A DNA stretch of 36,051 bases, from IMG/VR virus record IMGVR_UViG_3300023257_000065, positions 1-36,051 of that record; one strand, 5' to 3'. The notes below the pieces were generated by a model. It was not told where the DNA came from. It saw only the letters and a program-made list of their open reading frames with translations, and did no database searches. This stretch comes from a virus. Of this stretch, positions 4,246 through 25,096 are shown in pieces; position 1 is the stretch's first letter, and every line of letters begins with the position of its first letter. Both the position numbers and the translations under genes were made by a program.

Positions 4246-5325
4246 CTATGTTGCCGCGCTGTCTGCACTATCCGAAGTAGGTAGAAACTCGCTGAGTAGT
4301 TCCGACAGATCATCATCATCGCCGACGAACGTACACTCAGGCGGCAGTGGCTGCATTACCCGCGGCTCCGACGTAGGTGCTGGCGTCGGCGGAGGCGCAG
4401 TTGTTGCCCAGTCAGATTGGTCAGATTGGTCAGATTGGTCAGATACTGTTTGGAGAGGCTGGTCGGGGTCGGGAACTCGGCCCAGGTCCTGAACAGTAAA
4501 GGACCCGTCGATGACGTCAACGGGGGTTGCCTCGGGAGGTGTGACGTCAGCGACGGGCTGTGGTGGTGCGAGGTTGTCGATGTTGCCGTTGTTGATCGTT
4601 ACGTTGTGCTGTACTAGTGTGCGTAGGCTTGGGAGCTGGATGGATTCTAGGTCAGAGATTACCTCGGTGCCGCGAACGTGGTTGGGTAGTTTCCCCATCG
4701 ATTGCGCTGCGCGGGTGTATTGAGTAAGCATTGACCAGTATACAGCGATCATTTCGTTCACAGTAGCAGCAAAGCCTCCCCGCCGTGCTGGTCGTCTACT
4801 CAGGACCGATGCTTGCCCAATCTGGTTGCCTTGCTGGCCGCCCTGCCCACTTTGGCCGCCTTGCTGACTGCCCGGCTGCTGACGTCGAACGACGCCAGGC
4901 TTCCCCGGAACCATGAGTTCGTCTCCACCTGTGTTGGCAATGCGCTCCTCGGTCTGAAGCGCGGCGGATAGGCGAGACTCTTGGGTTCGGATCGTCTGGG
5001 CCATCTTGAGCATGACGTCCACCTCGACGGTAGCGCCGGCAAGTTCCGTCTCCATGTTGGTTGCCGGTAGGAGGGCACCCTCGGGGACTCGAACTCGGAC
5101 GCGTTCAACATCACCCTCGGCAATGTAGGTCCGTCGATTGGACGCCAGGAAATCGACAATGCGGTCATTTGTCCATCCCGAACGCACCATGGCAGCAATT
5201 GCACCCTCGATCACTGTAGTGATGGGGGTCCGACCCGAACTTTGGCTAGCCAGTTCAGCGACGTCCTGGCCCCGAACATCTTGGTTGTGTAGCTGAATTG
5301 TTTGGGTTGTCACATCTGCCCCCAT
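4246..5325 (-). CDS. Unrecognised protein, first gene of the leftward operon
   Basis: The product is 359 residues from ATG 5325, which has no good SD; a GTG at 5313 behind GGGGG is an alternative start. I do not recognise it. Residues about 30-75 look helical (AAMVRSGWTNDRIVDFLASN). A Gln/Gly-rich low-complexity stretch lies near 155-175, a helical segment follows (FAATVNEMIAVYWSMLTQY), and the C-terminus is Pro-rich and acidic. The SDQSDQSDQSDW run comes from a 9-base tandem repeat. As the first late gene it might act in packaging (small-terminase-like) or assembly, but nothing in the sequence proves this. No signal peptide or membrane segment is visible. Confidence 0.6.
   Translation of the reverse strand: MGADVTTQTIQLHNQDVRGQDVAELASQSSGRTPITTVIEGAIAAMVRSGWTNDRIVDFLASNRRTYIAEGDVERVRVRVPEGALLPATNMETELAGATVEVDVMLKMAQTIRTQESRLSAALQTEERIANTGGDELMVPGKPGVVRRQQPGSQQGGQSGQGGQQGNQIGQASVLSRRPARRGGFAATVNEMIAVYWSMLTQYTRAAQSMGKLPNHVRGTEVISDLESIQLPSLRTLVQHNVTINNGNIDNLAPPQPVADVTPPEATPVDVIDGSFTVQDLGRVPDPDQPLQTVSDQSDQSDQSDWATTAPPPTPAPTSEPRVMQPLPPECTFVGDDDDLSELLSEFLPTSDSADSAAT
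4412..4444. repeat. 9-base tandem repeat inside the coding sequence
   Basis: TCAGATTGG is repeated three full times plus a partial fourth copy. Read on the minus strand in frame it encodes SDQ triplets. The unit length is a multiple of three, so copy-number changes would keep the frame. Confidence 0.85.
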
Positions 5326-5380
5326 TTTGGCTGGTGCTGGTGGGTGCTTTTTGTTCTAAATTTCTATATCTTATATATAT

Positions 5381-5409
5381 ATTATACCCGCAATTTCGGA
5401 AAAAAGCAA
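5381..5409 (-). promoter_or_regulatory. Candidate sigma70-type promoter for the leftward operon
   Basis: On the minus strand TTGCTT (5409-5404), a 17-base spacer and a perfect TATAAT (5386-5381) stand about 56 bases upstream of the ATG at 5325. The -35 matches the consensus only in TTG. The surrounding DNA is very AT-rich, so chance matches are likely. Confidence 0.4.
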
Positions 5410-5416
5410 TAGGGTT

Positions 5417-5497
5417 TGTGCTCAATTTAGTGATACGTTTTCGGTGAGAACTCTTGAACGTTTGTTAGGTCAGGTAGGCAACAAGAGATTGAGCACA
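5417..5497. repeat. Two-part inverted repeat in the divergent region
   Basis: TGTGCTCAAT (5417-5426) is perfectly complementary to ATTGAGCACA (5488-5497). Inside it CTCTTG (5451-5456) pairs with CAAGAG (5482-5487). The two right-hand arms are contiguous while the left-hand arms are 24 bases apart. It could be an operator, an RNA structure or an origin element. Confidence 0.6.
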
Positions 5498-5659
5498 CAG
5501 TAAAAGTACCATCCGACGATATTGTCAATTCGGGGGGTGTAGTATTTATAATATATATATATTATAATATATATAATAAATAAATAAATAATATAATTTA
5601 TATATTATATAAAGAACTGTTTGCATAACTATTAACTATCTGGTCGTCTGTGTTTCTTA

Positions 5660-5688
5660 TCTATTCTAATAGGGAGGTCTGTTATAAG
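5660..5688 (+). promoter_or_regulatory. Weak candidate extended -10 promoter for the rightward operon
   Basis: TGTTATAAG (-10 TATAAG at 5683-5688 with a TGn extension) resembles the TGTTATAAT of the stronger promoters further right, but the -35 position reads TCTATT and does not match. It is the best plus-strand candidate before the first rightward gene. Confidence 0.3.
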
Positions 5689-5785
5689 AAGAAATTTCTA
5701 ACTGTTCGTTAACTATCGATTGATATTAAAACTGTAACGTCTAATGTTGAGATATTCTATATCTCAGAAAGAGAGAAGATTTATC

Positions 5786-6016
5786 ATGGGTAGTATGAAA
5801 GTTTCGTTAATAGAGTTTCTTTTCAATCTAGTAAAATCGGGTCGTTCAATATCTATTCTATCAATTAATGATCACGTTAATGATAGATTTTATGATATAG
5901 GTCTTCATCATGATCGAATTATGATGAGATCTATAAACGAAGATGATAAGCTAATCTATCAAGTGTTCTATCACGAGATCATCGATTGGCAAGATGATCA
6001 GATTATTATGAAATAG
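5786..6016 (+). CDS. Small unknown protein, first rightward gene
   Basis: The ATG at 5786 is chosen because the upstream AGAAAG box lies at exactly the same distance as in the next gene, although here the box is degenerate (AGAAAGAGAGAAGAT). The 76-residue product is acidic/hydrophobic and ends VFYHEIIDWQDDQIIMK. Its end resembles the C-terminus of the gene at 6195 (FNWRSVKSVSFNDDDITVKV), so the two may be distant paralogues. No known family is recognised. Coding sequence and flanks are distinctly AT-richer than the rest of the early arm. Confidence 0.65.
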   Translation: MGSMKVSLIEFLFNLVKSGRSISILSINDHVNDRFYDIGLHHDRIMMRSINEDDKLIYQVFYHEIIDWQDDQIIMK

Positions 6017-6023
6017 AATATAT

Positions 6024-6112
6024 AGATCTCTCGTAAGAGAGATCTTATAAGATAGCTAGAACGCAGCCGTTATAGCTATCTTATAAGATTAGTACTGTAC
6101 TAATCTTATAAG
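6024..6112 (+). promoter_or_regulatory. Three tandem stem-loops, two mutually exclusive
   Basis: Stem A is AGATCTCTC-GTAA-GAGAGATCT (6024-6045), a 9-bp stem with a GNRA-type loop. Stem B has 15-bp perfect arms 6044-6058 and 6073-6087. Stem C has 16-bp perfect arms 6080-6095 and 6097-6112. The 3' arm of B and the 5' arm of C share CTTATAAG (6080-6087), so both cannot form fully at once. A further 8-bp stem (6128-6135 with 6146-6153) lies before the SD of the next gene. There is no T-run, so this is not a plain intrinsic terminator. Confidence 0.75.
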
Positions 6113-6194
6113 GATTTGCTGATATAAAATCTGTAGCAATTCTGTTACAGATTATTAACACCATGTCATATCCCAGAAAGGGGGTGATAACAAA

Positions 6195-6428
6195 ATGACT
6201 TACAACCTAGCCGTGGAGAGAGTTATCAACTCTCTCGTGCAGGAGACTGTTACACTTATGTGTGATAGTTTCTTAGCAGAGGGTCTTGTTGTAAGATATG
6301 CTGGTGGTAACTTTGCAATCTCTTGCAAAGGGATCGAAGTAGCTATCTTCAACTGGAGATCGGTTAAGAGTGTTAGCTTTAACGATGATGATATCACCGT
6401 TAAAGTAACCTCTTGCGATTTCCTCTAG
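6195..6428 (+). CDS. Small unknown protein
   Basis: The ATG at 6195 follows CCCAGAAAGGGGGTGATAA, an extended SD, at good spacing. The 77-residue product has no recognised motif. It begins with a helical segment and ends in a likely beta meander (VAIFNWRSVKSVSFNDDDITVKV). It may be related to the protein at 5786. It is flanked on both sides by overlapping stem-loops and shares its leader box with the next gene, so it looks like one unit of a repeated expression cassette. A host-directed early function is possible but not shown. Confidence 0.7.
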   Translation: MTYNLAVERVINSLVQETVTLMCDSFLAEGLVVRYAGGNFAISCKGIEVAIFNWRSVKSVSFNDDDITVKVTSCDFL

Positions 6429-6437
6429 GCCCCAATA

Positions 6438-6508
6438 GTAAGAGACCCGTAAGGGTCCTCTTACATGAGTGATGAAACGTCGCGTATTCATCACTCATGT
6501 AAGGGTCC
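6438..6508 (+). promoter_or_regulatory. Overlapping tandem stem-loops (second cassette)
   Basis: The first stem is GTAAGAGACCC (6438-6448), loop GTAA, GGGTC and TCTTAC (to 6464) with one bulged C. The second stem pairs TTACATGAGTGATGAA (6461-6476) with TTCATCACTCATGTAA (6487-6502), 16 perfect base pairs. TTAC belongs to both stems, so they compete. GTAAGGGTCC occurs twice (6449-6458 and 6499-6508), giving a further alternative pairing for the first left arm. Confidence 0.75.
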
Positions 6509-6559
6509 AATTGTGGATTCTTTATATCATGTCATATCCCAGAAAGGGGGTGATAACAA

Positions 6560-6763
6560 TTGAATAAGGACTGCCAACACAGCCTTCACCCCATAAAGGG
6601 GAGCAACGGCGACTACTCCGCCGTGTGTCTGAATTGTGGCGATGGTTTCCCTATCTCTAAGGAGACCTTCGACCTCTGGACCGCGACGATGTCACTGTCG
6701 TCCCTCCTTTGGGGGCAGCTGTCTAACTCTATAGGTGACCACAAGGTCGACCTAGGTATTTAG
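6560..6763 (+). CDS. Small zinc-ribbon-like protein, TTG start
   Basis: The TTG at 6560 follows the same AGAAAGGGGGTGATAACA leader as the gene at 6195, so TTG is the likely start. The 67-residue product contains C5-x-H7 near the N-terminus and a later CLNCG, which could bind one zinc. The rest is hydrophobic and helical (FDLWTATMSLSSLLWGQL). No family is recognised. The third stem-loop cassette follows it. Confidence 0.7.
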   Translation: MNKDCQHSLHPIKGSNGDYSAVCLNCGDGFPISKETFDLWTATMSLSSLLWGQLSNSIGDHKVDLGI

Positions 6764-6784
6764 AGTAGACGGCTCCAGGCCGCC

Positions 6785-6897
6785 GTACGGTGTAGGCGCT
6801 CCTATCCAGGAGATAATACCGTACACCACAAATAGAACCCTTAACAGGGGTTCTTATATGAGTGCTATAACGACACACTTATAGCACTCATGTAAGA
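6785..6897 (+). promoter_or_regulatory. Overlapping tandem stem-loops (third cassette)
   Basis: GTACGGT (6785-6791) pairs with ACCGTAC (6818-6824) around an inner CTCCT/AGGAG hairpin. AGAACCC (6834-6840) pairs with GGGTTCT (6848-6854). A long stem pairs 6852-6870 with 6879-6897, 19 pairs with one G-T. The second and third stems overlap at TCT. The long stem and its flank CATGTAAGAGTC are clearly related to the second cassette (CATGTAAGGGTC). Confidence 0.75.
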
Positions 6898-6951
6898 GTC
6901 TCTACCTACATTCTTTATACACACGTCACATCTAGAAAGGAGGTGATAGAC

Positions 6952-7185
6952 GTGACCATCAAAGTGACACTAGGAGCAGACCATCAAGGTCTGCCCTGCG
7001 TGGACTGGATTGACGGTACCGAGAGGTACTGGCTTCCCCTTTGGGAGGCAGTCAGCAAGTCCATCCAAGTCGACCCGGCCACACTGAGGCCCCACGTGGA
7101 CTTCTCGAGGCCGGCATTCCGCCGACTCCCAGCCTCCGTCCTCAAGAGGCTGATAGTCGTCATCCCACCTGGGCTCGTCCTGTAG
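6952..7185 (+). CDS. Small unknown protein, GTG start
   Basis: The GTG at 6952 follows TCTAGAAAGGAGGTGATA, a near-perfect complement to a Gram-positive-type 16S 3' end. The product is 77 residues with no recognised domain. It has a patterned amphipathic first half and a Pro/Leu-rich end (VLKRLIVVIPPGLVL). Base composition is more GC-rich than the first two cassette genes. It is the last gene of the stem-loop cassette series. Confidence 0.65.
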   Translation: MTIKVTLGADHQGLPCVDWIDGTERYWLPLWEAVSKSIQVDPATLRPHVDFSRPAFRRLPASVLKRLIVVIPPGLVL

Positions 7186-7210
7186 GCACAATGAAGTGCT
7201 ACCCGGGAGA

Positions 7211-7307
7211 AAGGAGGTGCCTTGCACCACCACAACCGAATATCCACAAAACTGAATAGCCGATGTTGAGCGAAGCCCATCAGATATACACACCTAGGAG
7301 GTGTATA
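7211..7307 (+). promoter_or_regulatory. Leader with two SD-containing hairpins
   Basis: AAGGAGG (7211-7217) overlaps the hairpin GGTGC-CTT-GCACC (7216-7228); a TTG within its loop would open a 15-codon frame (7222-7269). Further on, TATACAC (7285-7291) pairs with GTGTATA (7301-7307), enclosing the SD of the gene at 7309. Both SD sites could be masked, so translational control by a protein or by RNA refolding is plausible. Confidence 0.5.
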
Positions 7308-7308
7308 C

Positions 7309-7770
7309 ATGGCTACGGCCAAGAAGGTAACATCGACACGCGTCCAGGAATTAGCCCCCGGGAACAACCACGAGGTACTGCTCGAGGAGGTTAGGGCAGG
7401 GGAGTGGGTGTCTCGGAAGGCATTCCAGAATGACTGTGGCATAGTTCCGGTCTGGGGCCAGCGCATGCTGTCCCAGGGTAGGAAGGGCATTGTCGCAGGC
7501 AAGTTGGAAGGTCGTTGGTTCGTCTCCAAGTACTTCGTGGAGAGGTACGCCAAGGAGATGGCCCAGAAGGATCTCCCGGGAATGCGGGCTACGGGCAACC
7601 ATGAGAAGCCGACCATCCGGGCGATCCGGATGGTGGGCAACATGGTGACCCAGGATGCTGACCTGGACGACACGGCGCGCGACGTCGTGTTGGAGCTGCT
7701 CCGGAAGTACAAGGAGCAGTACGACACTCGCCAGGAACTCCTGGAGGAGCTCGCCGAGCTGGACGCCTAG
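7309..7770 (+). CDS. Putative helix-turn-helix DNA-binding protein
   Basis: The ATG at 7309 follows TAGGAGG at 7 bases. The 153-residue protein has an N-terminal region reading GEWVSRKAFQND with IVPVWGQRMLSQGRKGIVAGK and GRWFVSKYFVERY, resembling MerR/excisionase-type winged helices. A C-terminal helical part carries VTQDADLDDTARDVVLELL. The layout, and especially the end (TDLDEEDRETAVAWLEVY in the other), matches the protein at 13757, so they are probable paralogues. It is likely a phage regulator or DNA-binding accessory protein. The SD lies inside a hairpin, suggesting autoregulation, which is inferred. Confidence 0.6.
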   Translation: MATAKKVTSTRVQELAPGNNHEVLLEEVRAGEWVSRKAFQNDCGIVPVWGQRMLSQGRKGIVAGKLEGRWFVSKYFVERYAKEMAQKDLPGMRATGNHEKPTIRAIRMVGNMVTQDADLDDTARDVVLELLRKYKEQYDTRQELLEELAELDA

Positions 7771-7791
7771 CAAGCGTCGAGCAGTAGCACG

Positions 7792-7817
7792 CAGGGCTTC
7801 ACTTCGGTGGAGCCCTG
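7792..7817 (+). promoter_or_regulatory. Stable TTCG-loop hairpin between genes
   Basis: CAGGGCTTCAC, TTCG and GTGGAGCCCTG form an 11-bp stem with one G-T pair and a UUCG tetraloop. Outer bases AGCGT (7773-7777) and ACGCT (7818-7822) can extend it. No T-run follows, so it may be a processing or stability element rather than a terminator. Confidence 0.65.
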
Positions 7818-7898
7818 ACGCTAATGCTTGACAACCGAATAGCAATGGATGCGGACCGCGCAGCGAGACAAGCCAACACCCGAAAGGAGGTGATGCAA

Positions 7899-8027
7899 AT
7901 GTTTCACGTGAGCGTAGGCAGCTACTTCGTAGTGCGGTCAGCCGATATCTTCTGGCTGATGGCCGTCTCGATAACCTTCCACGCACCAATCGTCCATACC
8001 TGGACTGGCGTGGAAGTCTGGAGGTAA
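7899..8027 (+). CDS. Tiny hydrophobic protein
   Basis: The ATG at 7899 is placed by CGAAAGGAGGTGATGCAA directly upstream, a very strong SD. The 42-residue product has a hydrophobic centre (IFWLMAVSITFHAPIV) that might be a weak membrane segment. Its TAA is followed within 2 bases by the next open frame, which lacks a standard start. The two may have been one gene (see findings). Confidence 0.6.
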   Translation: MFHVSVGSYFVVRSADIFWLMAVSITFHAPIVHTWTGVEVWR

Positions 8028-8029
8028 CC

Positions 8030-8269
8030 ATCGAAGCTAACGAACTGCTGGAAAGGCTACGCGGCCGCATCCAAGTGGTGCCCGGTTCCAAGGACCCCGC
8101 CAGAATCTTTTTGTACTCCTTGGGGCCACCTACAGTCGTTCCAACTTCTGGAGAGCTCCCTGCCTTGGTTACACAGAGGTATACGGAGGCTCCACACACA
8201 CCTAGATGCCGAGACTGGCTCGGCGGCCGCGATTCGATGCAGAAACTGGCAGAGAGGAGATGCAAGTGA
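8030..8269 (+). CDS. Small unknown protein with uncertain start
   Basis: The frame from 8030 codes for 79 residues beginning IEANELLERLRGRIQVVPG. The only codon well placed behind the upstream GGAGG is ATC at 8030. The first standard start is GTG at 8075, which has no SD. The TGA overlaps the next ATG at 8269, which supports this frame being translated. It may start at a rare ATC codon, start at GTG 8075, or be the second half of a frameshifted gene beginning at 7899. No domain is recognised; the C-terminus is Arg/Lys-rich. Confidence 0.45.
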   Translation: MEANELLERLRGRIQVVPGSKDPARIFLYSLGPPTVVPTSGELPALVTQRYTEAPHTPRCRDWLGGRDSMQKLAERRCK

Positions 8270-8475
8270 TGAAGAAGGTAGGTAGGACGAAACGAGTATA
8301 CAACTCAGCAGCAAACCGCCGGAGGGCGACAGCACAGCTGATCCGGTACGGGAATAACTACTTCTTAGGGTTCCGAAACATATGTGACCCGCAGCAAGAG
8401 ATACCGATGCGATTTGGGCTCAGCTACGGAGTAGCTAGTTGGGTGGGCCCAGGCGAGGTGTTACAGAATGTGTGA
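8269..8475 (+). CDS. Small basic unknown protein
   Basis: The ATG at 8269 overlaps the preceding TGA and follows GAGGAG at 9 bases; an in-frame ATG at 8260 lies within the SD region. The 68-residue product has a very basic N-terminus (MKKVGRTKRVYNSAANRRR), suggesting nucleic-acid binding, but no family is recognised. It is the last gene before the second AT-rich gap. Confidence 0.65.
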   Translation: MKKVGRTKRVYNSAANRRRATAQLIRYGNNYFLGFRNICDPQQEIPMRFGLSYGVASWVGPGEVLQNV

Positions 8476-8494
8476 GAGCGTGACAAGAGGCCGT

Positions 8495-8524
8495 GGGAGT
8501 GGAGGGTAGTTGCCCCTCACTCCC
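8495..8524 (+). terminator. Hairpin after the first small-gene cluster, possible terminator
   Basis: GGGAGTG (8495-8501) pairs with CACTCCC (8518-8524), with an inner AGGG/CCCT. It lies 20 bases after the last stop codon. The following bases are not a T-run, so termination would be weak or factor-dependent. Confidence 0.4.
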
Positions 8525-8736
8525 GTACTCAAGGTTTCCAGTTGTATCAATATATATATATATATAATTTATATAAAAATATAATAATAATAATATATTA
8601 AGTATATCTAGAGGAGGCAAATCTCAATATATTGAGAAATATAAATAAGTATAAATATATATATATATAGCTTATCTTAAAATTCTCGTATTCTCGTATT
8701 TTATTATAAACGAGAGATCTCAATATCGCTTAGGCC

Positions 8737-8771
8737 ATGAGTCAGCAAAAACAGCTGTTTTCGCTACTCAT
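8737..8771. repeat. Imperfect palindrome centred on AAAACAGCTGTTTT
   Basis: ATGAGT pairs with ACTCAT, AGC with GCT and AAAACAG with CTGTTTT, interrupted only by single-base mismatches or bulges. The symmetry suits a dimeric DNA-binding protein or a cruciform. Confidence 0.65.
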
Positions 8772-8871
8772 TGGTACCCGATCGGAGACCCAAAACAACA
8801 AACCCTCGAGCTTATACAACACTACAAGTATTCTCACTTATAATGTTCTACGAAAAGCTACCAAGAACCGG

Positions 8872-8917
8872 GCTACATTGTGGTCACGTTGTGGACACGT
8901 TGCTACCACAATGTAGC
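8872..8917. repeat. 12-bp perfect inverted repeat upstream of the first strong promoter
   Basis: GCTACATTGTGG (8872-8883) is the exact reverse complement of CCACAATGTAGC (8906-8917). The 22-base interior contains CACGTTG twice. It ends 45 bases before the -35 at 8962, a suitable position for an operator or activator site. Confidence 0.7.
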
Positions 8918-8961
8918 TGGGAAAGAGAGGAGGGAAACCCTGCCACGCACCAAAGAGAGAC

Positions 8962-8990
8962 TTGATTTTTTCGCGGTTCTGTGTTATAAT
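8962..8990 (+). promoter_or_regulatory. Strong sigma70-type early promoter 1
   Basis: TTGATT (8962-8967), a 17-base spacer and TATAAT (8985-8990) with a TGT extension. It is preceded by CAAAGAGAGAC, a box shared with the other three promoters. It drives the genes from 9011 with a leader of roughly 15 bases. Confidence 0.85.
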
Positions 8991-9010
8991 TAGATAGAAA
9001 GGAGATTAGG

Positions 9011-9304
9011 ATGTGTAACCAAGAAGGCAATAACCTGGTGGAACGACTACAGCAAGCCATAGTAGCAAGCGATACCGCCGCGCGGATAACGGAGGAGCCC
9101 GTCGTGATCGATGAAGCTGCGACGCGCACACGCAAGTACTTCGGAGTGTCCCGTTGGGAGGCCTTCCGAGATGGAGACGAGGACCCAGAGGTGGATAGGT
9201 ACCACGTAATCCAATGGCAGCTATCCGCAATGTTCCTCGCACTCCAGGTATGCAGCGAGTTCAAAGAGGAGCTCGAGAGGCTCCTTAGTAATCCGCCAGC
9301 GTAG
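9011..9304 (+). CDS. Small unknown early protein
   Basis: The ATG at 9011 follows AGAAAGGAGAT and is the first gene after promoter 1, so it should be made early and strongly. The 97-residue acidic protein seems mostly helical (LVERLQQAIVASDTAARI; LALQVCSEFKEELERLL) with a central FGVSRWEAFRDGDED. I do not recognise the family. It is separated by 42 bases from the next gene in the same operon. Confidence 0.7.
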   Translation: MCNQEGNNLVERLQQAIVASDTAARITEEPVVIDEAATRTRKYFGVSRWEAFRDGDEDPEVDRYHVIQWQLSAMFLALQVCSEFKEELERLLSNPPA

Positions 9305-9346
9305 GTACCTAGTAATGAATCACAAGGAAAGGGAGGGTAACGCAAG

Positions 9347-9550
9347 ATGCCTATCAAGTTAAAGGGAGGAAGGCTCGTTATTGGGTTCTTCGAAGGAGAA
9401 CGTGAAGAGGATGGAGCATACATCTACTGCTACGATACTGTCGAGGAAGACGATCACTGGCAGCTGATGCTCCCTCGAATTCGAATTGATCTCCCACGGC
9501 TCTACATACGTGGGAAGAAAGCAAAAGGAGGTAGCAATGCTGCAGGATGA
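9347..9550 (+). CDS. Small unknown protein
   Basis: The ATG at 9347 follows AAGGGAGGG at 9 bases. The 67 residues start with a likely beta-rich part (KLKGGRLVIGFFEGERE) and end with a basic tail (RLYIRGKKAKGG). It overlaps the next start at 9537 by 14 bases, consistent with coupled translation. No family is recognised. Confidence 0.65.
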   Translation: MPIKLKGGRLVIGFFEGEREEDGAYIYCYDTVEEDDHWQLMLPRIRIDLPRLYIRGKKAKGGSNAAG

Positions 9551-20256: not shown

Positions 20257-22797
20257 ATGGATCTACTCGACACTTTGTTTGAAGACCTCTCGTCGGAAGA
20301 GTGGATCGAGGTTCGTATTATCGACAGGGACCGAAAGAGTAAGCAGCTCTTCGTTCAGTCGGCCGCTAAAGTATATGAGATAGCGGGTAAGGTAGGAGAG
20401 AAGGCAAATGTATATTTCGGGGTAAGTGCCCGCCTAGGTAAGGATGGGCACAAGGAGTCCGTTGCACGGTGTCGGGCTGTATGGGCCGACATTGACGGGA
20501 AGAGCTTTCCTGGCGGCAAGGAGGATGCGCTTGCCGCAGTGGATTCCTTCGTCTTCGCCCCCTCGTTCGTAGTCGACAGTGGTAACGGGTTCCATGGGTA
20601 CTGGCTCCTCGTAGAGGACGCGAAACCTACAGACGCTGAAGACCTAATGAAGGAAATCGGGGCATGTGTTAACGGAGACAGTACCTGGGACGCTTCAAGG
20701 GTACTTAGAGTACCAGGGTCCTTTAACGTTAAGGGGAATGTACCCATTCCATGCGTGCTTGTTCAGTCGCGCCCCGACCTGAAGTACAACCTCGATGACC
20801 TAGCTGCTGGTTGTAAGCTTGATGGTAGTACAGTACAACGCATTGTCACGGGAAGCTCTGAGGGCTACACGTCGAGGAGCGAGCGTGATTGGGCTGTTAC
20901 TACTGCCCTGGTGAGTAAGGGAGTCTCGGACCTTGGAGTCCGACAGATATTTGAGGAACGCGCAATCGGAGACAAGTTCTCCGAGGAGGGAGGAGACCGA
21001 TACCTTTCGCGAACGGTAAAGCAGGCTTCAAAGCGGCTAACACCTACGGCGATCAGTATCCTAACGGAGCAAGAAGATTGCTACTATGTAGATACGGCAA
21101 AGGGGATACGTCAGGTATCAACGTTTAGGATTGACCCGCATCGTCTGCTACACGGCGACGTACAGGATGCAATTATGGGCGACATCATCGCAGAAGGATT
21201 AGTATGGAAAGATGTCATACTGCCGAAGGCGGCGTTTAACAAGCGCGACGCACTACTGAGACACCTAACCTCGGTGGAATGGCAGTGGACAGGAACCGAC
21301 GATCATGTTAGGCTCCTACTTCCTTTTCTGGTTCACAAGCTGCGTGCACTCAGCGATCCCATGCCGAGTGCGAGAGCTGTCGGAGTGCTCGGACGGCACG
21401 AGGACTACTGGGTTACTCCCCAGGGAACGTTCTCGGCGACCAAAGAGTACCCACAGCAAGAAGCCCCAATCCTTTTCATGTCGATGAAGCGCACAGCTCT
21501 CCCGGTGCAATACGACCGGGCTGGCGACGATGCTCTAGCTGAGTTCTTAGGTGCGTTGTTTCCAACGCTACTCGAGATAAACGACCCGGAAGTAATATGG
21601 CCTATACTTAGCTGGTATATGGCCACGCCGTACAAGGTGTTGCTAAACAGCGCAGGGGTCTCGTTTCCTACCCTGAACGTGTACGGTACTAGGGGTTCAG
21701 GAAAGACGACAACGTTAACTAGGGTCATGCAGCCGTTACTAGGGTACACAAAGCCCTTCTCCCATGACTGTTCGACTACACCGTTTGTGCTGCTGAGTCT
21801 GCTTAGCTCCACGAACTCCATCCCGATCTCGTTTAGTGAGTTCCGCAGGTCTGGGATGCGTGAGGCTGATTACACAAAGTTACTCAGGTACGTACTCTTA
21901 GCGTACGACGCTGGATATGACGCGAGGGGTCGACCTGACCAGACAACTACAGAGTACCAACTGAGTGCTCCGTTTACCCTTGATGGAGAAGACGCACTAT
22001 CAGATGCTGCAGCTCAGGAGAGGTCAGTAATCATAAACCTCCGGCCAGAGACGGTGAAGGAGAATGGTACCTGTTGGACCGCGTACAACAAGCTAGTGAC
22101 TCTGCCTCTGGGAATGTTCGCGGGACATTATATACGTTACACCCTTTCGCATTCGGAGAGCTCGATTGTGACTGAGTGGCAACGAATGTATGACCTAACC
22201 AAGGAGGCGTTTCCCGAATCTATACCGGACCGCGTTCGACGCAACATCGCAACTACGTGTCTCGGAACGTGGTCGCTTAAAGGGTTCCTAGCACAACACG
22301 GTCTCGACGTAGTAGACCTAGACGCGGCTTTTGTAAGGTCGGTCTTTGGACCCTCTATCGGGGACATCATCAACCTTACGACTGGCAGAACTATGATCCT
22401 AGTCGACGAGCTGATTGAAGACGTAATCAACATTGTAGCTGCTCCCGACGTTCGTGTCCCTTTTACTTACAAGTATGACAGTCAGCGGAACGTACTATGG
22501 TTCCACATGACTACGGTGTTGAATTGGTGGCACCGCAAACGACGAACCGAAGGTAGGGCGTCACTAGACTCAGCTGCAGTTAAGCGGCAGCTCGCAGAAA
22601 GGAGTGTGCATACTTTTGTAGGGCCCGGTCAGTACGTTGTGGGTCGTAAGTCCGTTGCCCTGTCCGGAGCCGTTCGCTGGATGTACGGAATCGACATCGC
22701 AGTAGCGTGTGACGCCGGTCTGGACATTCCCGACCAGGTGGCGGATGCTACAATAGTAGTATATGGAAAAGGAGAATCCGATGCAAGAATTAGCTAA
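20257..22797 (+). CDS. Primase-helicase (AEP-type primase fused to P-loop helicase)
   Basis: The ATG at 20257 follows TTGGAGGTTGGC; a frame extension to 20245 lacks an SD. The product is 846 residues. The N-terminal 190 residues look like an archaeo-eukaryotic-type primase: DID at 78-80 as metal ligands, SGNGFHGYW (108-116) with the conserved His, and WDASRVLRVPGSFN (144-157). A middle linker leads to an ATPase with Walker A GTRGSGKT (477-484) and downstream helicase-like motifs (SFSEFRRSG). The enzyme should prime and unwind phage DNA. It overlaps queC by 17 bases, tying replication to the modification genes. Confidence 0.87.
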   Translation: MDLLDTLFEDLSSEEWIEVRIIDRDRKSKQLFVQSAAKVYEIAGKVGEKANVYFGVSARLGKDGHKESVARCRAVWADIDGKSFPGGKEDALAAVDSFVFAPSFVVDSGNGFHGYWLLVEDAKPTDAEDLMKEIGACVNGDSTWDASRVLRVPGSFNVKGNVPIPCVLVQSRPDLKYNLDDLAAGCKLDGSTVQRIVTGSSEGYTSRSERDWAVTTALVSKGVSDLGVRQIFEERAIGDKFSEEGGDRYLSRTVKQASKRLTPTAISILTEQEDCYYVDTAKGIRQVSTFRIDPHRLLHGDVQDAIMGDIIAEGLVWKDVILPKAAFNKRDALLRHLTSVEWQWTGTDDHVRLLLPFLVHKLRALSDPMPSARAVGVLGRHEDYWVTPQGTFSATKEYPQQEAPILFMSMKRTALPVQYDRAGDDALAEFLGALFPTLLEINDPEVIWPILSWYMATPYKVLLNSAGVSFPTLNVYGTRGSGKTTTLTRVMQPLLGYTKPFSHDCSTTPFVLLSLLSSTNSIPISFSEFRRSGMREADYTKLLRYVLLAYDAGYDARGRPDQTTTEYQLSAPFTLDGEDALSDAAAQERSVIINLRPETVKENGTCWTAYNKLVTLPLGMFAGHYIRYTLSHSESSIVTEWQRMYDLTKEAFPESIPDRVRRNIATTCLGTWSLKGFLAQHGLDVVDLDAAFVRSVFGPSIGDIINLTTGRTMILVDELIEDVINIVAAPDVRVPFTYKYDSQRNVLWFHMTTVLNWWHRKRRTEGRASLDSAAVKRQLAERSVHTFVGPGQYVVGRKSVALSGAVRWMYGIDIAVACDAGLDIPDQVADATIVVYGKGESDARIS

Positions 22798-23494
22798 CAC
22801 TCCGCAGAAGGCTGTTGTAATACTAAGTGGAGGCCTAGACTCGACAACGGTCTTGTCGCTAGGCATGCGGGGCCTTATACTAGATGCTAGCGGACCCGCT
22901 ACCCCTTGTGCCGCGGTATCATTCCGGTACGGACAGCGCCACGAGAAGGAGGTGGAACACGCTGAACAGATTGCGACGTACTGGAACGTACCGTTCTTTG
23001 CGTATGATATCCCTAGAGTTGCCACGTCGCATCTGACACTTCCCGGTACTGACCTAGATCAGAAGCTTTCTGACTACGTCGCGGTGAGACCACTGTCGTG
23101 GCATCCACATCGTAACGCACTCATGATCATCTTGGCTGCTCAGCTGGCTTACCGTAGAGGTACAAACATCGTCATGGGTGGATGGCATCAGGATGACAAT
23201 GCATACCCTGACTGTACGTATCCCTTCCTCCGAGCGATGGAGGATATGCTGCGTGTCAGCGGTGACGATGACGGATTTCGAGTTCTCTCGCCGTTGCTAC
23301 ACATGAAGAAGGTTGAGATCGTCAAGGCCGCAATACGATCGAATGCCCCAATTGAGCTTACATGGTCATGTTACAAAGGAGGTGAGAAACAGTGCGGTAC
23401 GTGTGGAACCTGTAAGCAACGAAAGTTAGCGTTTAAGGAGGCCGGCGTGCCAGACCCTGTACCCTATGCCGACCCAACAGTGTACGACGACTAG
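22781..23494 (+). CDS. queC: 7-cyano-7-deazaguanine (preQ0) synthase QueC
   Basis: The ATG at 22781 follows AAAAGGAGAATCC; the ATG at 22763 lies upstream of that SD. The 237-residue protein has the PP-loop SGGLDST (16-22) for ATP and the zinc site C197, C205, C208 and C211 (GEKQCGTCGTCKQR), all diagnostic of QueC. It converts 7-carboxy-7-deazaguanine to preQ0 using ATP and ammonia, in the cytoplasm. Length is normal. It starts within the primase gene and leads the deazaguanine island. I saw no QueF, so preQ0 rather than preQ1 is the expected end product. Confidence 0.95.
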   Translation: MQELANTPQKAVVILSGGLDSTTVLSLGMRGLILDASGPATPCAAVSFRYGQRHEKEVEHAEQIATYWNVPFFAYDIPRVATSHLTLPGTDLDQKLSDYVAVRPLSWHPHRNALMIILAAQLAYRRGTNIVMGGWHQDDNAYPDCTYPFLRAMEDMLRVSGDDDGFRVLSPLLHMKKVEIVKAAIRSNAPIELTWSCYKGGEKQCGTCGTCKQRKLAFKEAGVPDPVPYADPTVYDD

Positions 23495-24186: not shown

Positions 24187-24618
24187 ATGGCGGACAGCTC
24201 TCAAGAGTTTGTGGGAGCGCTGGAGGCTGTAGTTGCCGATCTGCAAGCGATGTACGAAAGTAAGGGGGATGACTACGACCAGCTCACCCCGGTATGGCAT
24301 CGCATGATGTTCGGCAACGTCTCATGGGCTCACGAGGTTGCAAAGAAGGCCGACAGACTCACGAGCCTCGTTATGGTTGAGCTGCATGGTAAGACGCCGA
24401 ACTTTGACTCACTCTCAGACAACGTTATGGACATTGCTGTATACGCAGTGATGTGGCTCGCGTTTATGCGAGTGTGTAAGCAGCAGGACCGCAACTCCGA
24501 AGATTCCGTGAAGCCTAGTGTATCCCAGATACGGGAGATGGCGAAGGGAGAGACTTCAGATCCTGAAGTGTCGCTGAAGCCCAGCGATGGAGTACGTAAG
24601 CTCTTCGGGAAGAAGTAG
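24187..24618 (+). CDS. DUF1599/MazG-like nucleotide-modification-associated protein
   Basis: The ATG at 24187 follows GAAAGGGGTGCA; an upstream GTG at 24160 is also in frame. The 143 residues contain YESKGDDYDQL, EVAKKADRLTSLV and DNVMDIAVYAVMWLAFM, the pattern I associate with DUF1599 (nucleotide modification associated domain 1), a relative of MazG-type pyrophosphohydrolases. Acidic and Lys residues that would bind metal and phosphate are present. The C-terminal 40 residues are a Ser/Pro/Lys tail. Inside the island, it might clean up or remodel a nucleotide; inferred. Confidence 0.7.
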   Translation: MADSSQEFVGALEAVVADLQAMYESKGDDYDQLTPVWHRMMFGNVSWAHEVAKKADRLTSLVMVELHGKTPNFDSLSDNVMDIAVYAVMWLAFMRVCKQQDRNSEDSVKPSVSQIREMAKGETSDPEVSLKPSDGVRKLFGKK

Positions 24619-24621
24619 AAC

Positions 24622-24717
24622 AAGGGAGGCCTTGTGCCTCCTTCGGCTGCGTCGAGCATTTTCACGAAAGAGGGGTCTAGACTGGGTGTTCGACGTAGTC
24701 GAAGGGTGCATACACCC
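24622..24717 (+). promoter_or_regulatory. Structured leader upstream of queD
   Basis: Three hairpins: AAGGGAGGC/GCCTCCTT (24622-24643, one bulge), TTCGAC-GTA-GTCGAA (24689-24703, perfect) and GGGTG-CATA-CACCC (24704-24717, perfect). Competing outer pairing GGGTGT/ACACCC (24684-24689 with 24712-24717) exists. This is the only sizeable gap inside the island. No known preQ1 riboswitch pattern was recognised. Confidence 0.45.
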
Positions 24718-24736
24718 TAGAGAGGAAGGTAGTAGA

Positions 24737-25096
24737 ATGATTGGCAAATTTAACAAGAAGTACATGCTCAGGAAGGTAGTGTGGATAAGTGCAGCACACC
24801 ACCTACGTTGGGTTAGCTCCCCGTGCTCGGAGGTGCACGGACACAATTGGAGGGTAACGGTAATCTGCGGCACTGACGAGCTCAACGACCGAGGAATGGT
24901 CGTCGACTTCTCGCTGATATCGGAGGTCGTAAAGAAGTACGACCATACAGACCTAAACACTCAGCTAGAGCAACCAACTGCCGAGATGCTCGCTAACCGC
25001 CTAGGCGCAGAGATTCCAAAGTGCCTTGCTGTAGGAGTACAAGAAACGGAGGGGAACGAGGTATGGTGGATCAACCCACTCCCAGGCATAGCATAA
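24737..25096 (+). CDS. queD: 6-carboxytetrahydropterin synthase QueD
   Basis: ATG at 24737 follows AGAGAGGAAGGTAGTAGA. In the 119-residue product the zinc histidines H22, H34 and H36 (HHL and VHGHNW), the catalytic C30, the D69-H70 pair and the PTAE motif (80-83) match QueD/PTPS. It turns 7,8-dihydroneopterin triphosphate made by FolE into 6-carboxytetrahydropterin. The gene overlaps the next ORF by 34 bases. Length is typical of QueD. Confidence 0.93.
   Translation: MIGKFNKKYMLRKVVWISAAHHLRWVSSPCSEVHGHNWRVTVICGTDELNDRGMVVDFSLISEVVKKYDHTDLNTQLEQPTAEMLANRLGAEIPKCLAVGVQETEGNEVWWINPLPGIA

Follow-up and report, generated by a model that had tools for sequence, protein, structure and literature searches.

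In cluster K mycobacteriophages, some of the non-structural genes carry a repeated box (SAS) at their ribosome-binding sites, and about half of these boxes have an imperfect 17-bp inverted repeat upstream, mostly within wide gaps; the available portion of the original description calls the role unknown (PMC3203893). The ESAS described there have 17-bp arms and, in most cases, a spacer of 4-13 bp, and lie directly upstream of the SD-like box. According to the same portion of that 2011 paper, departures among the ESAS do not generally support RNA pairing (PMC3203893). ESAS of phage Adephagia contain SigA-like promoters, the basis of a promoter reading (PMC11373665), and the ESAS of cluster EF Microbacterium phages are weakly conserved in sequence and, in the accessible part of that report, not described as hairpins (PMC7302621). 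A 2025 survey, as excerpted, covers 188 cluster K phages (PMC12699233).

Other phages carry structured or repeated elements between genes. In T7, the available text describes R1.1 as a structured RNA, 60 nt long, that lies between early genes 1.0 and 1.1, and as an RNase III site that is used in vivo (PMC6121014). The put RNAs of HK022 are described as about 70 nt long, with two stem-loops, and as making RNA polymerase resist later terminators by binding it directly (PMC9378689). Cluster O mycobacteriophages are reported to have 17-bp dyad repeats with 7-bp arms in more than 30 copies, many of them intergenic (PMC4351075). The host-takeover module of Bacillus phage SPO1 is summarized as mostly small early genes with high-expression ribosome-binding sites (PMC6873191).

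The element considered here lies in an uncultured phage, IMG/VR virus record IMGVR_UViG_3300023257_000065, and the whole 36,051 bases analysed are referred to as the window. The window encodes DNA polymerase A, a helicase, a Sak4-like annealing protein, an exonuclease and QueC/QueD-like proteins. The QueC-like (22763-23494) and QueD-like (24587-25096) genes suggest 7-deazaguanine modification of the phage DNA. Among the matches listed from cultured phages, the best relatives of the polymerase are in Weizmannia and Bacillus phages (~31% identity) and those of the helicase in Rhodococcus and Gordonia phages (33-35% identity). Because of these relatives, and because the SDs discussed below are complementary to the Gram-positive 16S tail, the host is probably a Gram-positive bacterium, possibly an actinobacterium.

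Small genes of 76, 77, 67, 77 and 153 aa, all rightward, follow a divergent AT-rich stretch (5325-5785, GC 0.30), and the gaps in this cluster are, from the gene coordinates, 178, 131, 188, 123 and 128 nt wide. The small genes had only sub-threshold matches in Pfam at curated cut-offs (best E 0.0096) and a best E of 0.048 in PHROGs, the two collections that the search covered. Small genes without a family match behind an AT-rich divergent region make an early operon probable. The cluster is flanked, at 5540-5613 and 8539-8670, by two repeat tracts that are very rich in AT and could be origin or promoter regions. Third-position GC runs 0.29, 0.45, 0.71, 0.73 and 0.81 across the five neighbours in 5786-7770, and is 0.56-0.57 in the helicase and polA genes. 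The features of the cluster are as follows.

5786-6016, plus strand: gene 1, 76 aa, no family match at the curated cut-off; ordinary purine-rich ribosome-binding site, -10.2 kcal/mol
6021-6049, plus strand: block 1, first predicted hairpin (stem 6024-6045), 9-bp core, GUAA loop, 4 nt past the gene 1 stop
6041-6090, plus strand: block 1, family copy 1, 17 bp (6042-6089) plus inner pairs
6079-6113, plus strand: block 1, third predicted hairpin (stem 6080-6112), 15-16 bp, 3-nt loop, overlapping copy 1 via CTTATAAG
6128-6153, plus strand: block 1, extra predicted hairpin, 11 pairs including one GU, in block 1 only
6175-6189, plus strand: extended SD of gene 2, AGAAAGGGGGTGATA, -22.3 kcal/mol with the anti-SD
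6195-6428, plus strand: gene 2, 77 aa, ATG start, no family match at the curated cut-off
6438-6464, plus strand: block 2, first predicted hairpin, GUAA loop, 3' arm CTCTTAC overlapping the next stem; from the second fold
6457-6507, plus strand: block 2, family copy 2 (stem 6458-6505), 18 Watson-Crick pairs and 1 GU
6541-6555, plus strand: extended SD of gene 3, AGAAAGGGGGTGATA, -22.3 kcal/mol with the anti-SD
6560-6763, plus strand: gene 3, 67 aa, TTG start, no family match
6785-6824, plus strand: block 3, extra leading predicted hairpin, 9-bp outer and 5-bp inner stem
6834-6854, plus strand: block 3, short predicted hairpin (AGAACCC...GGGTTCT) ahead of the long one
6850-6900, plus strand: block 3, family copy 3 (stem 6852-6897), 18 Watson-Crick pairs and 1 GU
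6934-6948, plus strand: extended SD of gene 4, AGAAAGGAGGTGATA, -23.1 kcal/mol with the anti-SD
6952-7185, plus strand: gene 4, 77 aa, GTG start, no family match at the curated cut-off
7776-7832, plus strand: imperfect predicted hairpin in the fourth gap (7771-7898), 11-pair core 7792-7817, not a family copy
7881-7894, plus strand: extended SD of gene 6, CGAAAGGAGGTGAT, -22.7 kcal/mol with the anti-SD
7899, plus strand: ATG of gene 6, an ORF of 42 aa

Tandem hairpins with stems of 15-19 bp thus occupy three gaps between small genes (6017-6194, 6429-6559 and 6764-6951), and each of these successive gaps has the same order: stop codon, stems, next SD, with the first stem 4-21 nt past the stop (hand-set anchors). 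In a count of stems with at least 9 Watson-Crick pairs that treats GU and AC alike, block 1 has stems of 9, 17, 15 and 11, and blocks 2 and 3 have one of 19 each; the first hairpin of each of the latter two is shorter or bulged and was taken from folding instead. A recount of pairs shows that the long stems of the original prediction are real (17 bp, 15 bp, and twice 18 Watson-Crick pairs plus one GU). A further gap with a similar layout had been overlooked: gap 7771-7898 contains a hairpin and then CGAAAGGAGGTGATG at 7881.

The final long stems of blocks 2 and 3 had been noted to share sequence, and they are repeats of 73% identity over 49 nt; block 1 adds a third copy, the hairpin at 6043-6088, which is 72% identical to the block 3 copy over 46 nt. 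The copies at 6041-6090, 6457-6507 and 6850-6900 form one family in an alignment of 51 columns, with stems of 17-19 bp and loops of 8, 10 and 14; all three have AACG on the 5' side of the apical loop, and the rest of the loop is variable. Blocks 1 and 2 also share a linker repeat of 44 nt (91% identity). No two of the genes that follow the copies are evident paralogues (the best E-value between different genes is 1.1), so it is the leader, not the gene, that repeats.

Scored on the 19-pair stem of copy 3, pairing is retained at 55 of 57 cells (96.5%) across the copies. Ten of the 19 pairs are invariant, seven are changed on both sides, one is changed on one side, and one departs only by an unpaired cell. 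The observed percentage, number of double-changed pairs and covariation score were each reached by 1 of 500 column shuffles and the number of pair types by 4 of 500, in a test on three copies from one genome that borrows its structure from one of them and so leans towards the true register. With the registers slid by 1-3 columns, pairing is 29.8-50.9%, with at most one double-changed pair. The original prediction had proposed a covariance search seeded with the blocks; a covariance model of the family, R1, picks out the three copies in the window, at 63-70 bits on the plus strand and 39-46 bits at the same places on the minus strand. These results support a repeated, structured cis element ahead of several genes. 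Because the copies changed letters and kept their base pairing, the RNA shape of the hairpins probably matters, and from this covariation we infer that they form in the transcript.

The stems exceed chance. When 6017-6951 was shuffled 200 times with dinucleotides preserved, stems of at least 10 pairs averaged 0.12 and the longest had 12; the real sequence has four by the same count (18, 16, 11 and 19), which misses the stem at 6852 because of its GU pairs. Compared with shuffles, folding of blocks 1-3 has z-scores of -7.3, -7.8 and -7.4 on the plus strand and -8.5, -6.6 and -5.7 on the minus strand, the plus strand being better in two of three. The fourth gap (7771-7880) reaches z -3.7, a value matched by 1 of 200 shuffles, and gap 7186-7308, which lacks the element, z -1.6, matched by 14 of 200. 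Non-Watson-Crick pairs inside the block stems read as GU on the plus strand in three of three cases, and in four of four with gap 7771-7898 included (p 0.06), as expected for a transcript of the coding strand. The GU counts are small. Under stricter rules the ratio of GU to AC is 1:0 for the blocks together with the fourth gap, and 1:2 for the remainder of the window, both AC pairs belonging to hairpin 7284-7310, in a neighbouring gap outside the blocks. All three blocks also fold well on the minus strand, so the palindromic arms could be kept as DNA instead of RNA.

So, are the overlapping stems a switch? The shared arms reported earlier were all re-found: CTTATAAG at 6080-6087, TTAC at 6461-6464 and TCT at 6852-6854 each belong to two neighbouring stems. 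To call these stems mutually exclusive is too strong, given that both hairpins (all three in block 1) are kept in the best and next-best distinct folds, which have energies of -42.1 and -41.0 kcal/mol in block 1, -39.3 and -34.1 in block 2, and -32.2 and -30.8 in block 3. The two folds of each pair differ by a shift of shared basal pairs only. Folding each block for alternatives, a second check proposed with the original prediction, thus yields structures that trade basal pairs and seldom lose a hairpin: one of the five folds listed for block 2 lacks the first hairpin, at a cost of 6.8 kcal/mol over the best fold, as does one of the six for block 3, at a cost of 3.5 kcal/mol, and another in block 3 has it shortened. 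The predicted folds indicate that the overlap is mainly a migrating junction.

The SDs do not seem to be gated either. Exposure of the SD in the genes behind the hairpins is 0.28, 0.28, 0.51 and 0.53 unpaired; the median of 42 genes of this genome, picked by script, is 0.505, and ten of them lie below 0.28. Since the hairpins coexist in the best folds and the SDs are not unusually buried, a riboswitch, attenuator or other switch with two exclusive folds is rejected, and the earlier reading of a switchable RNA element falls with it. As modelled, the element looks more like a structural or RNA-processing part.

The box itself behaved as described. AGAAAGGRGGTGATA occurs three times in the window, once behind each block, 61, 35 and 35 nt past the last long stem, and from its first base to the ATG, TTG or GTG there are 18-20 nt (hand-set anchors). 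We take this extended SD to be a 13-14 nt complement of the Gram-positive 16S 3' end, which accounts for 14 of the 15 letters of the box. In duplex energy, genes 2, 3, 4 and 6 are the top four of 42 candidate genes picked by script, not by a gene finder, at -22.3 to -23.1 kcal/mol, and the rest are at -17.6 or weaker. The same box with a start codon is present in at least 120 stretches in IMG/VR. The box was therefore discarded as a separate element, being 16S complementarity and common in IMG/VR. Because the duplex energies rank highest and the same boxes are frequent in other phages, the extended SDs appear to mark genes meant for strong translation. A stem of at least 10 pairs lies within 130 nt upstream at 9 of 80 such SD sites (from loci L020-L099, sites with less than 130 nt upstream dropped and 40 further loci unused), compared with 11 of 400 random 130-nt pieces that are probably mostly coding, a mild excess.

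Gene 5 lies behind a gap of another kind. An extended SD, AGAAAGGAGGTGCC, within 7208-7310 precedes a 15-codon frame from TTG at 7222 to TGA at 7269, LHHHNRISTKLNSRC, which could be a leader peptide that controls gene 5. The SD of gene 5 is inside hairpin 7284-7310, where bases 7301-7306 are 3% unpaired in the block folding; its hexamer AGGAGG, partly in the loop, is 0.65 unpaired in the SD-exposure calculation.

The explanation that we tentatively favour, at somewhat less than even confidence, is a repeated intercistronic mRNA element whose hairpins delimit or protect strongly translated early cistrons, perhaps as RNase III sites. Each copy begins with one or two hairpins close to the stop codon, followed by a family hairpin of 17-19 bp, a linker and a strong SD; the linker is 35 nt in blocks 2 and 3, and block 1 has further hairpins and 61 nt. 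An RNase III processing site is a double-stranded stem of about two helical turns in a transcript, and the predicted stems of the blocks are long enough. By analogy with the sites between T7 early genes, the hairpins may be double-stranded cleavage sites for host RNase III, and alternatively or additionally they may act as 5' or 3' stability barriers. Each small gene would then be translated highly and independently of its neighbours. If the hairpins do cut or protect the mRNA, they would be a compact natural insulation of genes within an operon.

An unlikely alternative, although the one that has most to recommend it, is control at the level of DNA, with the inverted repeats as operators of a dimeric phage regulator and every gene having its own promoter next to them. 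Palindromes as near to perfect as these suit DNA binding, and they fold on either strand; the dimensions are close to those given for ESAS (17-bp arms with an SD-like box downstream) in the excerpted account (PMC3203893), and the Adephagia ESAS are said to hold SigA-like promoters (PMC11373665). However, no match to TTGACA-N16-18-TATAAT was found at 10 of 12 positions between 5529 and 8961, or at 9 of 12 on the plus strand in 5300-8961, and such promoters are present elsewhere; a weaker or non-canonical promoter in the blocks is possible. The inner halves of the arms also differ by compensating changes, which argues against a DNA operator, since a fixed binding site does not need them. Four similar strong sigma-70-type promoters, with 10-12 of 12 matches and all with GTTATAAT, lie on the plus strand at 8962, 13110, 13660 and 17638.

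It is more doubtful that the hairpins are an RNA operator, bound by a phage or host protein that adjusts the translation or decay of several early genes together; this is the binding-site idea of the original prediction without its switch. One hairpin family with a common AACG does stand before three unrelated genes, but the long hairpins end 35-61 nt ahead of an SD whose exposure is not unusual, the loop is variable besides AACG, and there is no candidate protein. We give equally little credence to a broader proposal, in which the tandem hairpins with migrating junctions are a new phage RNA family, duplicated ahead of several early genes, through which one trans-acting factor, a phage protein or host nuclease, sets the expression of host-takeover genes.

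That the hairpins are attenuators or terminators without a U-tract, producing a stepwise fall in expression between genes, or terminators of leftward transcription, is improbable. The stop-proximal hairpins are strong, and a scan of 5300-9400 found four terminator-like sites, all on the minus strand, where 2.2 were expected. Three of the four are the first hairpins of the blocks read leftward (6024-6045, 6443-6458 and 6834-6854). Against this, the simple scan for a stem followed by a U-run found no intrinsic terminator on the plus strand in 5300-9400, the genes that follow carry the window's strongest SDs, which would be odd behind a terminator, and no leftward gene was identified directly to the right of the blocks.

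Slightly less probable again is that the repeats are neutral or mark recombination joints, as duplicated linkers through which small genes would be exchanged. The strong differences in third-position GC between neighbours (0.29-0.81), set beside linkers that repeat (44 nt, 91%), would fit; pairing kept through seven double changes is unexpected for neutral repeats, and no relatives show gene swapping. A put-like antitermination RNA, whose paired stem-loops bind RNA polymerase so that it resists later terminators, is highly improbable: two adjacent stem-loops in a probable early operon recall HK022 put as partly described (PMC9378689), but there are three copies per operon against one behind each early promoter, the stems are nearly perfect against the bulges and non-canonical pairs of put, and none of the Rfam models used was matched.

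The original prediction had also held that the element matches nothing known. This stands for the sequence, for which searches recognised no homologue, and not for the kind, given the published SAS/ESAS parallels, although no description of exactly this element was found in the literature searched. The window gave no Rfam match above the gathering threshold (three weak ones were far below it) and no match to cultured-phage DNA; a separate search of the latter returned 112 records whose matches were short (E 5 for the ones listed). Cultured-phage proteins gave nothing for some queries and distant replication proteins only for others. A polymerase search of IMG/VR found two 9-10 kb fragments, identical in PolA, that lack the hairpin region, and the other IMG/VR protein searches found no relatives. 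Pattern searches of IMG/VR yielded 7, 7, 0 and 5 matches, of which one set of seven and the set of five look like chance; the other seven hairpins, chosen for likeness of the outer stem, look unrelated to the family. Nine pattern matches in GTDB genomes also look like chance. Across 150 loci, with the window copies (L001-L003) left out, R1 scored at most 26 bits off the three copies, and its best such scores fall on loci selected for the outer stem. With no relative found that covers the hairpin region, the family is three copies in one genome. In three of the loci, on AT-rich contigs (L013, L017 and L019), a common hairpin, CTTATATGAG...CTCATATAAG, followed by an SD and start codon, precedes one gene.

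How does the element compare with those of other phages? The put RNAs are also tandem stem-loops in early phage transcripts, but the available description gives them irregular stems, direct polymerase binding and a single position behind each early promoter (PMC9378689). The cluster O dyads are likewise repeated inverted repeats, many of them intergenic; they differ in having fixed 7-bp arms and, in the part of the report at hand, no close link to translation starts (PMC4351075). The SPO1 host-takeover genes suggest, by analogy, a role for genes 1-4; unlike the operon here, the SPO1 module has no repeated hairpin element mentioned in the available portion of its description (PMC6873191).

Two uncultured phages among the 120 SD-pattern loci, L044 and L107, which look related to each other, repeatedly show the order stop codon, hairpin, SD, small gene. 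In a scan of the 120 for a repeated SD-plus-stem layout, L044 came first among the best 12, and L107 was found separately. Their stems differ in being GC-rich and ~8-14 bp long, several with CCCGTAA at the 3' end, and R1 does not match them. A helicase stretch of L044 (~130-160 nt) has 70-72% DNA identity to Microbacterium phages. The hairpins at L044:400-1240 and L107:6480-8100 may be a second RNA element, one whose relatives can be compared.

The T7 RNase III sites, as partly described, share structured RNA between early genes; R1.1 has an internal loop, whereas the stems here are nearly perfect, in tandem and without one (PMC6121014). The closest parallels are the SAS/ESAS, reported since 2011 and so far read as DNA-binding sites or promoters, which in the portions available likewise have a repeated box at the ribosome-binding site, an inverted repeat upstream and wide gaps (PMC3203893). 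The boxes themselves are unlike: that of this phage is 16S complement in 14 of 15 letters, and in the window the SAS box GGGATAGGAGCCC has two matches with two mismatches, both on the minus strand (1.06 by chance), and GGGAAAGGACCCC has none (0.95 by chance). The family stems are of ESAS size (17-19 bp, loops of 8, 10 and 14) and lie 35-61 nt before the box rather than immediately upstream of it, and the SigA-like -35/-10 known from ESAS is not found at 9-10 of 12 on the plus strand of the blocks (PMC11373665). Seven of 19 pairs here are changed on both sides, whereas the ESAS arms, in the same excerpted account, follow a common consensus, with departures that in general give little support to pairing (PMC3203893). 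Apparent RNA pairing, backed by covariation, is the main difference from the ESAS, and the covarying copies of this phage argue that at least some such elements may act as RNA.
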